NCBI GenBank assembly: GCA_947502975.1 | Contig: CANNBV010000006.1 | Coordinates: 1-64,000 of the forward strand | From: an uncultured Flavobacteriaceae bacterium | Lineage (GTDB): Bacteria > Bacteroidota > Bacteroidia > Flavobacteriales > Flavobacteriaceae | DNA length: 64,000 nucleotides | Direction of reading: 5' to 3' | Shown: positions 14,672 to 63,798 of the stretch, piece by piece | How the letters are laid out: every line of letters begins with the position of its first letter | How positions within the stretch are numbered: the stretch's first letter is position 1 | The notes under the pieces: model-generated | What the model was told of the DNA's origin: nothing | The model's input: the letters and a program-made list of their open reading frames with translations, nothing else | Database searches by the model: none | Made by a program: the position numbers and the translations under genes

Positions 14672-15207
14672 TGTTCTGGAAAAGAAAGAAAAATAAATCA
14701 ACGGAATTTAAATGTGCTGTATGTGGACAAATACATTCGGATTGGCCTGCATTAGCTTATAGCTCACCTGCGAATTACCACAACCTTTCTGAAAAGGAAA
14801 AATCGGAAATTGGTAAATTGGACACGGACTTTTGCGAAATTCATTACGCAGACCAAATTGACCGTTTTATAAGAGTAACGCTTACTCAAAAAGTAAAAGA
14901 CGCTTGCGAAACGTTGGAATACGGACTTTGGGTATCATTAAGCGAAAAAAGTTATTTAGACTATAAAGAAAATTACAATAATCCGAATCACGAAAATAAA
15001 TACTTTGGTTGGTTATGTAGCAATGTCCCTGAATATGGAGATACATCTTCAATTCCTTGCGATGTAATAACAAAAAGCGGAAATAACAGGCCAGAAATTT
15101 TTCCTCACGAAGATTTTGACCATCCATTAGTTCGGGATTATTACGACGGAATTTTAAAAACAGAAGCTGAAAATAGAATAAACGAAATGATAAAAAACCT
15201 TGGGTAA
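14671..15207 (+). CDS. DUF2199-like protein
   Basis: FKCAVCGQIHSDWPALAYSSPANYHNLSEKEKSEIGKLDTDFCEI..FIRVTLTQKV; CxxC near the N-terminus. Confidence 0.75.
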   Translation: MFWKRKKNKSTEFKCAVCGQIHSDWPALAYSSPANYHNLSEKEKSEIGKLDTDFCEIHYADQIDRFIRVTLTQKVKDACETLEYGLWVSLSEKSYLDYKENYNNPNHENKYFGWLCSNVPEYGDTSSIPCDVITKSGNNRPEIFPHEDFDHPLVRDYYDGILKTEAENRINEMIKNLG

Positions 15208-56262: not shown

Positions 56263-57312
56263 CTACTGCACTTTAATCCTATCAAATTTTTTAAGATTAG
56301 ATAACACTTCCGTATAAATACCATCTGAAAGACCTGTTTCTATTTCAATTTCTTTAATATTATCATCTATCCCAATGACTTCGACAAAAGAATTTTTATT
56401 CCTATATATGATGTTTTTTTCCTTTATAGTCAAGGTGTGTTCTTTCTTTTGCAAAACAAATTCAGCCAAGCCAGTATAACCAGGCTTTATATTTGAAATA
56501 GTATCTAAAACTATAGCACTTGCTAGATAATAAAAACTTTCACCTTCTTTTATCAAAGGCTTTAATTCTTGCACTTTTGCACTAATTAATTTATTGCTTA
56601 AAGCCTTAATATAAACGCCAAAAGTATCTCCAACTTTTACGTTAGGAACATCTATTTCTGTTACTTCAAATTCAAAATTAAAACTAGAAGTATTAACTAT
56701 TGTAGCAATGGTATTACCATCATTGAATGTATTGCGCTCAGTAACATTCATCCCTTTCTTAACAAGTACATTTAAAACTTCTCCATTAATTGTAGCTTTA
56801 ACTATATTAGGTGATTCATTTGCGTTTTTAGAAAATCCATTTTTAACAATATTGTAATTATTCTGTGAATTTGTATATTCTATTTTAGCAAAATTCAATG
56901 CTAATTCAGTTGTTTCAAATTCAGATCTAGCAATAACACCTTTTTTAAATAACTTTATACTCCTATCGTGATTAATCTGTTTTTGTTTTAAATCAGTTAA
57001 TGCCATACGTAAGCTTCGTTTTACGCGTTCCATGTCCTCTGGTATTGGAACAATTCTGAGCTTAGCTATATTTTCACCAACTGAAACAGTGTCTCCTGTT
57101 TTAACATAAATAGAATCAACAACACCAGAAATCTTAGGTTGGATTTTTACCATTTCATAAGGTTTAAATTTACCTAAGAAAAAAATCATTTTATTGATGT
57201 CTCTATATTTAGGTGATTCACTTGGAATTGTTTTTCCAGTGTTCACCGATGAGACAACCACAACAATAGCGATGAAAAACAGTATTATAAAAAAAATTAT
57301 TCTCTTATTCAT
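56263..57312 (-). CDS. HlyD/MacA-like periplasmic adaptor
   Basis: N-terminal TM; FKPYEMVKIQPKISGVVDSIYVKTGDTVSVGENIAKL, coiled-coil, KPGYTGLAEFVL. Confidence 0.85.
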   Translation of the reverse strand: MNKRIIFFIILFFIAIVVVVSSVNTGKTIPSESPKYRDINKMIFFLGKFKPYEMVKIQPKISGVVDSIYVKTGDTVSVGENIAKLRIVPIPEDMERVKRSLRMALTDLKQKQINHDRSIKLFKKGVIARSEFETTELALNFAKIEYTNSQNNYNIVKNGFSKNANESPNIVKATINGEVLNVLVKKGMNVTERNTFNDGNTIATIVNTSSFNFEFEVTEIDVPNVKVGDTFGVYIKALSNKLISAKVQELKPLIKEGESFYYLASAIVLDTISNIKPGYTGLAEFVLQKKEHTLTIKEKNIIYRNKNSFVEVIGIDDNIKEIEIETGLSDGIYTEVLSNLKKFDRIKVQ

Positions 57313-57319
57313 AAACCTC

Positions 57320-58546
57320 TTAATTATTTAATTCTCTAAGCGCCTCAACTGGCAAAACTTTCGATGCTTTTCTTGCTGGTATAATACCAGCAATACAACC
57401 AGATAACACCAATAATAAAATAGCAGATACAATGACGGAAATATTAAGATCTAATATGAGAAATTGGATGTTTCCACCAGAAATTTCTAGATACTTATTG
57501 ATAAGACAAATAACAATAAAACCGATTGTCAGACCAATTACCCCAGATACTAAGGTAATCAGTAATGATTCTAAAAGCACCATAGTTTGAATTGAAACTG
57601 GTCTAGCTCCAAGAGCTTTTCTAAGACCAAATTCCCCGGTTCTTTCCTTTACAATGACTGTCATAATATTAAATATACTCAACATACCACTAATCAAAAA
57701 TGAAATACCTATAAACCATAAAAAAAGGTTGACGGCATTAAATAGTGTATTAAGTGATTTAATGGTATTCTCAATGTTATTAAAAAAGAAAGCCGTTTTA
57801 TCTTTAGAATTAACTCCTTTTTTATTAGATAAATATATTTTTAGTGTTTTTTGAAACTCCTCGGTATTTATATCGCTTTTTAAAGATAAAATGAATTCAT
57901 TCAACTCAGTTTCAGAGTTTATATTTAATGCATTTTCATAAGAAATATATGCTTCATATCCAGAGTTATTGAACATATTATCTTTTTTTACTACTCCAAT
58001 AATTTTATAACCTACATTATCTATAAAAACTAATCTTCCAACACAATTGACATTGTTAAAGAGTTGCTTTGCAATTTCATACCCAACTATGATAACCTTT
58101 CTATTCATATCATGAATATTAAAAGCTCTCCCTGTATTAAATTTTAAGGTCTTTATACTAAAGTAGTTTTCATTGATACCTTTAAGTGAAAAATGATTTA
58201 TACTTTTTCTTTCTGAAATAATTTTAGACACATTAACATTTACAACTGGCGATATATTCTGAATTTCATTAAAATTTAGAATACAACTTTTAATGTCTAT
58301 CATCGTAAAAGAAATCAAATCTCCCTTGGTGACATTAATATCTGATATTGATGCTTCGCCAGAAAAAACCTCAATTGTATTTACAGTATAATCTGCAAAT
58401 AACTTCTTAACTCCATTCTGCAAACCTTCACCAATACCTACTAAAATAATTAATAGCATAATACCCCAAGCCACAGTAATACCTGCAATAATACTTTTGC
58501 TTTTGTTCTTGTATGTGGCACTTAAAACCTCTGGTGTATGAAACAT
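57320..58546 (-). CDS. FtsX/MacB-like ABC transporter permease (no ATPase domain)
   Basis: N-terminal TM, MacB-like periplasmic domain, IFNIMTVIVKERTGEFGLRKALGARPVSIQTMVLLESLLITLVSGVIG. Confidence 0.88.
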   Translation of the reverse strand: MFHTPEVLSATYKNKSKSIIAGITVAWGIMLLIILVGIGEGLQNGVKKLFADYTVNTIEVFSGEASISDINVTKGDLISFTMIDIKSCILNFNEIQNISPVVNVNVSKIISERKSINHFSLKGINENYFSIKTLKFNTGRAFNIHDMNRKVIIVGYEIAKQLFNNVNCVGRLVFIDNVGYKIIGVVKKDNMFNNSGYEAYISYENALNINSETELNEFILSLKSDINTEEFQKTLKIYLSNKKGVNSKDKTAFFFNNIENTIKSLNTLFNAVNLFLWFIGISFLISGMLSIFNIMTVIVKERTGEFGLRKALGARPVSIQTMVLLESLLITLVSGVIGLTIGFIVICLINKYLEISGGNIQFLILDLNISVIVSAILLLVLSGCIAGIIPARKASKVLPVEALRELNN

Positions 58547-58547
58547 T

Positions 58548-60662
58548 TTAAGCGTACTTTAATGAAATTATTTTTTCTTCAAGTAAATAGTTATCTTCTG
58601 GGTTGTCTGAAGAAAGTTGCTCGTTGTGAGTTATAAATAAAATTACCATGTTTTCCTTTAGCTTATCTAAAAGCTCTAAAATCCTACTTTGAATTGCTTT
58701 GTCCATTGAAGCAGTAGCTTCATCAAGAATCAATACTTTGGGTCTTGAGAATAAAGCCCTAGCAATGGCTATAATTTGCTTTTCTCCTCCAGATGGCATA
58801 ACTCCTTCTTTTCCTAAAATAGTCCAATATGAGTTTTTGAATTTTGAAATTATATCACCAAAATTCAGATAACTTTCACAAAAATCAATCACTTTATCTT
58901 CTAAGAGTTTATCATCCAAACAGATATTGAACAAAACACTATCATTAAAAATCTTTATGTTTTGAGAAACATAGGCAATATTTTTACGCCACAACTCAGT
59001 TTTTATAGCTGATAGCTCATACTCGTCGTTAATTGTAATGTTTCCAGAGTGGGGTTTATAAAATTTTAAGAGCAATTGTGAGAGTGTACTTTTCCCACTT
59101 CCACTTTTGCCTTTAAGAAACGTTATATTTCCTTTACTTAACTTTAAGTTTGCTTTTGTAATCAAGCAATCTTGACCAGGATATGAAAAGGATAAGTCTT
59201 TAATAGAAATCAGATATATCTGTTCAACATCCTTTTTATTGGTTTGGCTTTTTGCTTCGTCTAACTCATTACTTCTTTCTGCAAAATCAAACATACGTTC
59301 AATAGCTATCTTACTTTCAAAAATCTCAAAATTAAGCTGAACTGTACTTTTTACTGCCCCTAGAACCATAAATATCAATGATATGATAGCAATTAAGTCC
59401 CCGACTTCAATATTTTTATTAAAGACTAATAAAACAGCATAGGCAATTGCAGAGACAGATATAGCCATACTACAAATTTCAATAAATGTTTCTTGATTAA
59501 CCTCATGTCTTATTAATTTCAAAATTGAATCTTGAAATACCTTATGTTTTGTTACATTTTTTTTATAGAATAAAGCTTCTTTGTTAAATATTTTTATAGT
59601 TTCTATACCACTAATAGTATCTATATAGTGAGATTCTGTTTGTGCATAGTCAATAAACATTCTATGCTGAAATGTTTTAATATTGGTATTGAATAGCCAC
59701 GAACATAAATAAAGTACAGGAAAGGATGCTAAGAGTATCAAAGCCACACCGCTAGAATAATAGAATAAGAGAATAAGTGCTATTACTATCACAAACAGTT
59801 CAATTAATGAATCAGCTATAACAGTCTTTATATTTCTTTGTATACGCTGAGTATCATTCATTCTCGCAATCATGTCGCCTTGCTTTTTACTATCAAAAAA
59901 CACTTTTGGCATTTTGAGTAAACGCTTAAAGAAATATTTAAATACTCTTATATTGAAATTATAAGCTTGTTGAACCAATACTACTGACCTGATATATCTA
60001 AGTCCTATTGTTGCTAGTAGTAAGATAAACCATATACTTATGGTTTTAAGCAATAACTCTAAACTTCTTGAAGGTAAAACAACGTCTATTAATTTTTCAG
60101 TAAAAACTAATGTTGTCATATTAAGCAAAGCAATAATAATACCCAGAAAAACAGCCGAAATATAATATGATGCATCCTCTTTTACCATATCCAATATCCA
60201 ATTTAGATAGTCTCTTTTTTGGGTTTTAACTATTGGAATTGAATTATTTTTTTTTATTATTAGGATATAACCACTTTTCCAAACTTTTAAAAGGTCTTCT
60301 TTTGAATAAGTTTGAATACCTAAAGCGGGGTCTATGATGGTAAACCCTTTTTTATTTTCATAACCAAAACATAGAAGGTAATGTAAAAAGCCTTGACGCT
60401 CAATATGAATAATAAATGGATCTTCGATTGTTTTTATATCGTTAATTGATGCTTCGTATGCTTCAGATGATAAACCAATTTTCTCAGATGCCTGAATAAG
60501 ACCAAAAAACGATGTACCTTTGGAACTAGTTCCACTAATCTCTTTAAGATATTCTAAGTTGGCATCACCACCATAGTATCTTAAAGCCATTTTAAGGCAG
60601 GCACAACCACAATCTTTTTGGTCGTGTTGTAAAACCACATATTTCTTGTAGGTATTAATCAA
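58548..60662 (-). CDS. Peptidase-domain-containing ABC transporter (C39 peptidase, PCAT)
   Basis: VVLQHDQKDCGCACLKMALRYYGG (Cys), GFLHYLLCFGY (His), TIIDPALG (Asp); LKGKSGSGKSTLSQLLLKF Walker A; MPSGGEKQIIAIARALFSRPKVLILDEATASMD. Confidence 0.95.
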   Translation of the reverse strand: MINTYKKYVVLQHDQKDCGCACLKMALRYYGGDANLEYLKEISGTSSKGTSFFGLIQASEKIGLSSEAYEASINDIKTIEDPFIIHIERQGFLHYLLCFGYENKKGFTIIDPALGIQTYSKEDLLKVWKSGYILIIKKNNSIPIVKTQKRDYLNWILDMVKEDASYYISAVFLGIIIALLNMTTLVFTEKLIDVVLPSRSLELLLKTISIWFILLLATIGLRYIRSVVLVQQAYNFNIRVFKYFFKRLLKMPKVFFDSKKQGDMIARMNDTQRIQRNIKTVIADSLIELFVIVIALILLFYYSSGVALILLASFPVLYLCSWLFNTNIKTFQHRMFIDYAQTESHYIDTISGIETIKIFNKEALFYKKNVTKHKVFQDSILKLIRHEVNQETFIEICSMAISVSAIAYAVLLVFNKNIEVGDLIAIISLIFMVLGAVKSTVQLNFEIFESKIAIERMFDFAERSNELDEAKSQTNKKDVEQIYLISIKDLSFSYPGQDCLITKANLKLSKGNITFLKGKSGSGKSTLSQLLLKFYKPHSGNITINDEYELSAIKTELWRKNIAYVSQNIKIFNDSVLFNICLDDKLLEDKVIDFCESYLNFGDIISKFKNSYWTILGKEGVMPSGGEKQIIAIARALFSRPKVLILDEATASMDKAIQSRILELLDKLKENMVILFITHNEQLSSDNPEDNYLLEEKIISLKYA

Positions 60663-61200
60663 TTTGAGCTGCTTTTATATATCTAAGTATAGTTTTAACA
60701 GGAACATCATCATTAATGATTTTAATAAGTTCCTGCTTGGTATTGTATATAAAGTATGATGGAGTGATAGTTTGTTTAAAGAGTGTAAAGAAATCTCCTT
60801 TGCTACATCTCAGAAATTTCACATTAGATATTGAATCTAGCTTAAATTGTTTTTGATAAGCAATAATTTTTTCTTTTGAATTATGAGAAACAAAAATAAC
60901 TTGTGATGCTTTATGGAATTTTTTGAATGTATTAAATAATTTACCTGACTTTTTACAAAGACTACAATCAGGATCAAAATAAACTAGGATTAGACTTTCA
61001 TTTTTTTCTAAGTCATATTTTGAGAAGGGAATAGAATCTAAGGTGTAAAATTCAAAAAGTGGTAGTTTTATATTACTTATCTCAACAGTTGACAACTCAT
61101 TTTCACTTACCTTCTCTGAAGTTTGTTTAGCTTTATTAAAGACTATAATGAGAATACCTATTAGCGATAAAACTATAATAACCTTCACAACCGTTCTCAT
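60655..61200 (-). CDS. Thioredoxin-like/AhpC-TSA-like membrane-anchored protein
   Basis: N-terminal TM; SLILVYFDPDCSLCKKSGKLFNTFKKFH (CxxC), ITPSYFIYNTKQELIKII. Confidence 0.75.
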   Translation of the reverse strand: MRTVVKVIIVLSLIGILIIVFNKAKQTSEKVSENELSTVEISNIKLPLFEFYTLDSIPFSKYDLEKNESLILVYFDPDCSLCKKSGKLFNTFKKFHKASQVIFVSHNSKEKIIAYQKQFKLDSISNVKFLRCSKGDFFTLFKQTITPSYFIYNTKQELIKIINDDVPVKTILRYIKAAQID

Positions 61201-61203
61201 AAT

Positions 61204-61923
61204 TTAAACAAGATCAAAAAGATACCAAAAAACGGTGTTGTAGAATATAAAAATTATAGAATAGGCTAAATAGGAATAACCAATAAGTGCTCTTTTTTTA
61301 ATATTTGTGTAGATATAGCCTAGAAGCAAACCAACAATTAACGGAAATAACACATATACAAAACCTGTTTCATTAACTATATTCCATAACCATTTTGATG
61401 TATTAGCTTTATCAAAAAACATATTGAATCTAAAATAACTTTCAAAGTTATGAATATCATTAAGCTGATAATTTTTCTTGAATATTATAAAGTAAATAGC
61501 AGAAATAACTTCTGGAACATAAAAAACTATAAACGCAATTAATGAGGCTTTCAATATGTTAAGGTATTTTAAAATGTATAGCTTTTTATGAAATAGAATT
61601 AAAATTAAAAAAGTAGCGCTAAAACCCAATGAAACCAAAAGAAGTGGTACTAGAACAAACAATGAATCAACATAGAATGTATCCCAACCATAACTACTAT
61701 CATCAGCGGTTTGTTCAAATTGTTTAAGTTCATCTTCAAATTCAGTTAAATCAATATCTAAATTCCTATACTCATTATATTTTGTTTCATATTTTTTATC
61801 TAAATGTTTTTGGTATACTTTGTCACTTAGTACAACATCATTTGATACAAAAGAAACTAAATAAGAAATTATAATAACTAAAAGTGTAATTAATAATGTG
61901 CTACTATCTAAAAACTTTTTCAT
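61204..61923 (-). CDS. Multi-TM membrane protein of unknown function
   Basis: 239 aa, about 5-6 hydrophobic segments; ATGA overlap with the upstream gene. Confidence 0.65.
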   Translation of the reverse strand: MKKFLDSSTLLITLLVIIISYLVSFVSNDVVLSDKVYQKHLDKKYETKYNEYRNLDIDLTEFEDELKQFEQTADDSSYGWDTFYVDSLFVLVPLLLVSLGFSATFLILILFHKKLYILKYLNILKASLIAFIVFYVPEVISAIYFIIFKKNYQLNDIHNFESYFRFNMFFDKANTSKWLWNIVNETGFVYVLFPLIVGLLLGYIYTNIKKRALIGYSYLAYSIIFIFYNTVFWYLFDLV

Positions 61924-63457: not shown

Positions 63458-63616
63458 TCAAAACCATATAGTTCCAGAACAATTCTTTTCTATTCTAGCT
63501 TTTAAACGTGTTTCTCCACCACCTCTTCTCTGCCATCTACTAGCCATTGCCATACAACGTCCATATGTAGCCCCGCCAAAAATCTTTGAATTTTGTATAA
63601 AGTCTATTTTTTTCAT
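63458..63616 (-). CDS. Small GG-leader peptide precursor 1 (candidate bacteriocin)
   Basis: Read from the reverse complement: MKKIDFIQNSKIFGG|ATYGRCMAMASRWQRRGGGETRLKARIEKNCSGTIWF* (52 aa); not in the ORF track. Confidence 0.75.
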   Translation of the reverse strand: MKKIDFIQNSKIFGGATYGRCMAMASRWQRRGGGETRLKARIEKNCSGTIWF

Positions 63617-63651: not shown

Positions 63652-63798
63652 TTACAAAACTCTTTCATGTCTCTCTACCATTCTATAGAATCTTGCACAA
63701 TCTCCATGATTGTAACATTTATTCATTTGTTTTCTCATGCGCTCTGCAAGCCCCGAAGCAAAAATCTCACTACTTTCGTTTAATTCTAATTTTCTCAT
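63652..63798 (-). CDS. Small leader-peptide precursor 2 (candidate bacteriocin)
   Basis: Read from the reverse complement: MRKLELNESSEIFASGLAERMRKQMNKCYNHGDCARFYRMVERHERVL* (48 aa); leader aligns without gaps to peptide 1 through ..IF; not in the ORF track. Confidence 0.68.
   Translation of the reverse strand: MRKLELNESSEIFASGLAERMRKQMNKCYNHGDCARFYRMVERHERVL

Follow-up and report, generated by a model that had tools for sequence, protein, structure and literature searches.

A putative bacteroidetocin-like operon headed by two cationic, two-cysteine peptide precursors in an uncultured Flavobacteriaceae bacterium

Near the end of a 64,000-nucleotide stretch of an uncultured Flavobacteriaceae genome (NCBI GenBank assembly GCA_947502975.1, contig CANNBV010000006.1, positions 1 to 64,000; hereafter the window) lies a 52-aa open reading frame (ORF) that a sequence-only reading had proposed as an unannotated precursor for a peptidase C39 exporter, raising the question of whether it is a gene at all and, if so, what kind of peptide it would yield. 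We conclude that this ORF, pep2, is a genuine gene for an exported-peptide precursor and is accompanied by a complete export operon. Its product is probably a cationic peptide that is secreted and closed by a disulfide. A second precursor, pep1, is probably made with it, and the two genes would open a class II bacteriocin operon of bacteroidetocin-like type. The earlier proposal of a C39 precursor stood, and was incomplete in that the second precursor, the operon and the bacteroidetocin neighbourhood had been missed.

The precursor genes and the export operon

The ORF exists where it had been placed and runs on the minus strand (63616→63458), which the sequence-only reading had left unstated; the plus-strand reading of the same interval is interrupted by stops. 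Translation gives the proposed 15-aa leader ending in IFGG and the 37-aa core with cysteines at core positions 6 and 31 and an internal RRGGG, and a recount of the core reproduces its eight basic residues (two Lys, six Arg) against two Glu, with a net charge of +6. We scanned for ATG-initiated ORFs of 40–80 aa that combine M[K/R]-X(9-13)-GG with two or more cysteines after residue 15, and found one match in the 64-kb window, pep2, compared to 0/100 for dinucleotide-preserving shuffles. This result, together with comparable peptides at syntenic sites in two other genera, indicates that pep2 is not a chance ORF. The predicted structure, of low to moderate confidence (mean pLDDT 62), has helices at residues 15–30 and 35–46, and the hairpin geometry of these two modelled helices would place Cys21 and Cys46 near each other, suggesting that they pair. 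In line with the earlier remark that the core was not recognised as a known bacteriocin family, it matched no Pfam, NCBIfam or PDB family, and the curated bacteriocin family models of Pfam and NCBIfam gave no match at E values up to 1. Class IIa (pediocin-like) identity was rejected, as the core reads ATYGRC and lacks the YGNGVxC motif.

Two further features had been overlooked. The pep1 gene (63798→63652) lies 35 bp upstream of pep2 in the same direction; its leader is 16 aa long and ends in SG rather than GG, after which cleavage would be expected, and its cysteine spacing is unlike that of pep2. Upstream of pep1 is a conserved gene that we take, by eye from its sequence, to be YifB/Mg-chelatase-like. 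The other feature is a stem-loop that lies after pep2 and before the gene for a CarboxypepD_reg-like protein (CarbD); this stem-loop is probably an attenuator or an RNA-processing or stabilising hairpin.

Table 1. Peptide genes, stem-loop and export operon of the window, in order of transcription.
Feature	Position	Strand	Basis
pep1, second precursor, MRKLELNESSEIFASG/LAERMRKQMNKCYNHGDCARFYRMVERHERVL	63652..63798	(-)	ORF list; leader aligns with pep2 and relatives; two Cys, net +4
pep2 precursor, MKKIDFIQNSKIFGG/ATYGRCMAMASRWQRRGGGETRLKARIEKNCSGTIWF	63458..63616	(-)	ORF list; core composition; pattern scan
Stem-loop	63387..63451	(-)	MFE -21.7 kcal/mol, z -6.05, 0/200 shuffles as good
CarbD, CarboxypepD_reg-like, signal peptide, 467 aa	61920..63323	(-)	PF13715, E 6.3e-10
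Multi-TM protein, 4-5 hydrophobic segments	61204..61923	(-)	Hydropathy; profile-profile comparison
Membrane-anchored thioredoxin-like protein, CSLC	60655..61200	(-)	Weak Thioredoxin_2/Redoxin matches below curated cut-offs
C39 peptidase-containing ABC exporter (PCAT)	58548..60662	(-)	Peptidase_C39 E 2.4e-33, ABC_membrane, ABC_tran; catalytic and Walker motifs
MacB_PCD/FtsX permease, without own ATPase domain	57320..58546	(-)	Domain match
MacA/RND-like membrane fusion protein (MFP)	56263..57312	(-)	TIGR01730 above its cut-off

From CarbD to the MFP the operon genes are almost gapless, and a gap precedes CarbD. The Cys/His/Asp site of the PCAT's C39 domain is apparently intact (QHDQKDCGCAC, LHY and DP), and the presence of this exporter in the same operon, within a TM/thioredoxin/C39 context, supports the earlier assignment of pep2 as a C39 substrate. 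The CSLC thioredoxin-like protein probably acts on the cysteines of the peptides as an oxidant or isomerase. The window operon encodes no ATPase partner for the FtsX permease and MacA-like adaptor. At another locus (L049), a fuller ABC ATPase-FtsX-FtsX-MFP set adjoins a related PCAT.

Related loci and distribution

Searching 400 genomes of the same family with the PCAT returned G092 (61% identity), G021 (57%) and about ten more relatives at 37–40%, the last of which adjoin a TM protein and usually also a thioredoxin; a PCAT search of genome contigs gave only two distant matches. The order CarbD-TM-Trx-PCAT-FtsX-MFP is the same in G092 (locus L040) and G021 (locus L041), which represent two other genera, and both loci keep the CxxC motif of the thioredoxin-like protein and have CarbD copies 35–41% identical following the peptides. 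Three small GG-leader, two-Cys, Arg-rich peptides are encoded in L041, in two groups, each of which is followed by a hairpin and its own CarbD copy, while L040 encodes one comparable peptide (IKRIQLKDASTIYAGG/ASDRRCARIVKRAARNLERGNLKAFTRLTNNYERLCSRFFK) and then a hairpin, so that hairpins lie 3' of the peptide genes in all three loci. At the L040 peptide gene (14768-14941, minus strand) no ATG, GTG or TTG is in place and ATT alone fits the leader start; the gene may use a rare start codon, contain a sequencing error or be in decay.

Leaders align among the window, L040 and L041 peptides, and the cores diverge (22–33% identity between genomes outside the leader), each core being hydrophilic (GRAVY -0.45 to -1.16), with two cysteines and a net charge of +4 to +9. 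Two of the L041 paralogues show nine synonymous codon differences in their first 27 codons, including TCA/AGT and CGT/AGA, which speaks for translation. A profile built from six peptides gave confident matches in only the window genome, G092 and G021 among 400 genomes; its remaining matches had E values of at least 3e-4, many with stops. We detected no sequence kin of the pep2 core beyond these three genomes, and a single-sequence peptide search among 60 relatives found nothing reliable. A pep2-type peptide was absent from the 11 congeners searched, and the genes around the flanking yifB-like gene vary among congeners, indicating that the operon is an accessory element.

The exporter cassette compared with known systems

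In a 40-sequence tree, the TM/thioredoxin-associated PCATs, including that of the window, fall on one side of a 100/99 branch. PCATs of the HlyD/TolC type lie outside this clade, among them the one on the Phocaeicola plasmid L121, which was among the nearest plasmid C39 loci. Besides the window and the related loci, the clade takes in two loci on Flammeovirga plasmids that carry TM-redoxin-ABC genes, and the PCATs of the window, G092 and G021 are grouped in a 100/100 subclade whose branch is long. Profile-profile comparison links the window TM protein to ten TM proteins of related loci (97.3%, E 1.6e-11). The loci with PCATs at 37–40% identity encode peptides of differing kinds: some have hydrophobic, Gly/Ala-rich peptides with two cysteines, and others (L042, L043 and L108) have four-Cys peptides (KFWG...). 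The four-Cys peptides fit the description of bacteroidetocins A and B in their 15-aa leader, Lys after GG and four cysteines (PMC6671954). A four-Cys peptide query against plasmids found nothing.

Four genes are described for the bacteroidetocin region, encoding a protein with five TM segments, a small peptide with a GG leader, a thiol oxidoreductase and a C39-type ABC transporter (Coyne et al. 2019, PMC6671954). Deleting any of the first three attenuates the toxin, and in E. coli the set of four is enough. Other peptides were admitted as putative bacteroidetocins by the length of the leader, the presence of two or more cysteines and the ancillary genes; four cysteines mark the A/B core group and are not shared by every one of the 19 peptides listed (PMC6671954). 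The target is BamA (PMC8546649), and no immunity protein was found (PMC6671954).

The window resembles these systems in having a 15–16-aa leader and at least two cysteines and in bringing a TM protein, a thiol oxidoreductase and a C39 ABC exporter together in a single region, and the bacteroidetocin producers are likewise Bacteroidetes. Taken item by item, pep2 has a GG leader and cysteines of this description, whereas the 16-aa leader of pep1 ends in SG; the exporter is of the TM/thiol-oxidoreductase-associated type; the CSLC thioredoxin-like protein, with family matches below curated cut-offs, is the counterpart of the thiol oxidoreductase; and the protein with 4–5 hydrophobic segments, homologous to the TM proteins of related loci, may be that of the five-TM protein. 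Because all four gene kinds are present, the operon most likely works as a bacteroidetocin locus. In contrast to bacteroidetocins A and B as described in print, the window cores are Arg-rich with two rather than four cysteines and have no Lys after GG, and the window differs from bacteroidetocin regions in its two precursors, in its extra CarboxypepD_reg-like, FtsX and MFP genes and in its TM protein, which in the window subclade has an insertion and is a distant relative at best. The operon is thus most likely bacteroidetocin-like by the broad criteria of leader length, cysteines and ancillary genes (PMC6671954), with peptides outside the four-Cys A/B core group, a placement drawn from the gene set and from relatives that match the peptide descriptions.

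Other systems offer partial likenesses. C39-processed class II bacteriocin precursors in general combine a GG leader with a C39 exporter in the same operon, as in the window. Gallocin A, of class IIb, has two small GG-leader peptides with two cysteines each, both of them required and modelled as antiparallel disulfide-closed helical hairpins, and a thioredoxin-like helper; it differs in its Gram-positive producer, its BlpAB exporter and its few positive charges, compared to the strongly cationic window cores (PMC10100652). The window likewise has two peptides with two cysteines each, and the model of pep2 consists of two helices (with the mean pLDDT given above). In YknWXYZ of Bacillus, an SDP-toxin efflux system, an FtsX/MacB permease, an MFP and a multi-TM protein likewise accompany a peptide-toxin system (PMC4887032); the window FtsX and MFP recall YknZ and YknX, but a YknY ATPase gene is absent from the window operon. 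One relative of the window TM protein gives a weak match to YknW that spans its full length (E 0.01–0.35), and kinship of the window protein with YknW is unsupported, as the window protein itself gave no match.

Proposed function and alternatives

We read the locus as a divergent, multi-peptide bacteroidetocin-like bacteriocin locus whose products are presumably antibacterial. Both precursors would be translated from one transcript, and the hairpin 3' of the peptide genes may keep both more abundant than the products of the genes downstream. From its motifs and place in the operon, the C39 domain of the PCAT would recognise the leader and cut after GG (SG in pep1) during export of the core. 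The CSLC thioredoxin and the TM protein would oxidise the two cysteines, closing the helical hairpin, much as bacteroidetocin activity depends on the equivalent genes (PMC6671954), and the Arg-rich peptides might then attack the envelopes of related competitors. More speculatively, the CarboxypepD_reg-like protein, the FtsX-MFP pair or both could protect the producer or take the peptide across the outer membrane.

The peptides could instead be exported signals, matured by the same C39 route, since pheromones too are matured by C39 exporters (PMC6363468, PMC10100652). The hydrophilic cores would suit such a role, but the operon genes include no histidine kinase/regulator pair, the strong cationic charge and dedicated oxidant argue against it, and the several differing cationic cores in L041 are unlike one receptor-matched signal; we regard pheromones as improbable. 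Enzymatic modification of the cores, as in thioether, radical SAM or graspetide RiPPs with cysteines not in disulfides, appears very improbable: none of the three operons (window, L040 and L041) encodes a modifying enzyme and each has the CSLC thioredoxin, even though GG leaders are common to Bacteroidota RiPP families and two related loci give weak, sub-threshold TIGR04149 leader matches. That the 52-aa ORF is fortuitous, with the operon exporting only pep1 or some other substrate, is scarcely credible. Low identity between genomes outside the leader would be in its favour, but the shuffles yielded no such ORF, the leader and cysteine pattern recur at the same site in two other genera, and the L041 paralogues differ by synonymous codons.

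The preferred bacteriocin reading leaves CarbD to be placed. Relatives of CarbD occur widely across the family, in a constant chromosomal setting (L127–L153) where GG-leader peptides are lacking, and we therefore rejected CarbD as specific to peptide clusters; the operon copy is a recruited paralogue and did not originate with the operon. The fixed locus adjoins genes that we take, reading by eye, to be an acyl-CoA dehydrogenase and a xerC-like (tyrosine-recombinase-like) gene. No high-scoring chromosomal CarbD copy appeared among the four scored matches from the window genome (G000), G092 and G021, a lead drawn from three genomes. The repeated pairing of CarbD with peptides in L041 is as expected of an immunity protein or a peptide-specific envelope factor, and we speculate that CarbD is a candidate for immunity or an outer-membrane factor; its predicted structure is too poor for use (mean pLDDT 51). 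A distinct Bacteroidota family of Arg-rich, single-disulfide, helical-hairpin bacteriocins, with immunity from a duplicated and diverged chromosomal CarboxypepD_reg-like protein, is a tentative reading that we consider possible but rather unlikely. If it holds, the chromosomal CarboxypepD_reg-like protein, or a partner of it, could be the target.

Two things appear new here: the Arg-rich core family, and a paralogue of a chromosomal envelope gene that follows the peptides in every copy and is a candidate immunity factor. The operon type retains the bacteroidetocin processing machinery yet bears hydrophilic, Arg-rich cores, several per locus, and offers a small system for how Bacteroidota withstand their own exported peptides. 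Across Bacteroidota, the TM/thioredoxin/C39 cassette seems to serve structurally very different peptides.

Among other loci with the same cassette, L044, L045, L046, L050, L089 and L090 encode very different peptides, some being hydrophobic, Gly/Ala-rich, two-Cys and bacteriocin-like, and several in L090 being short and Cys/Pro-rich. The Flammeovirga plasmids L122 (NZ_CP034564.1) and L123 (NZ_CP076130.1) carry a TM-redoxin-C39 ABC set with two-Cys GG-leader peptides of 49–51 aa; a GLPGLI-family protein stands where CarbD would be, and a LanC-like gene lies next to one of them.
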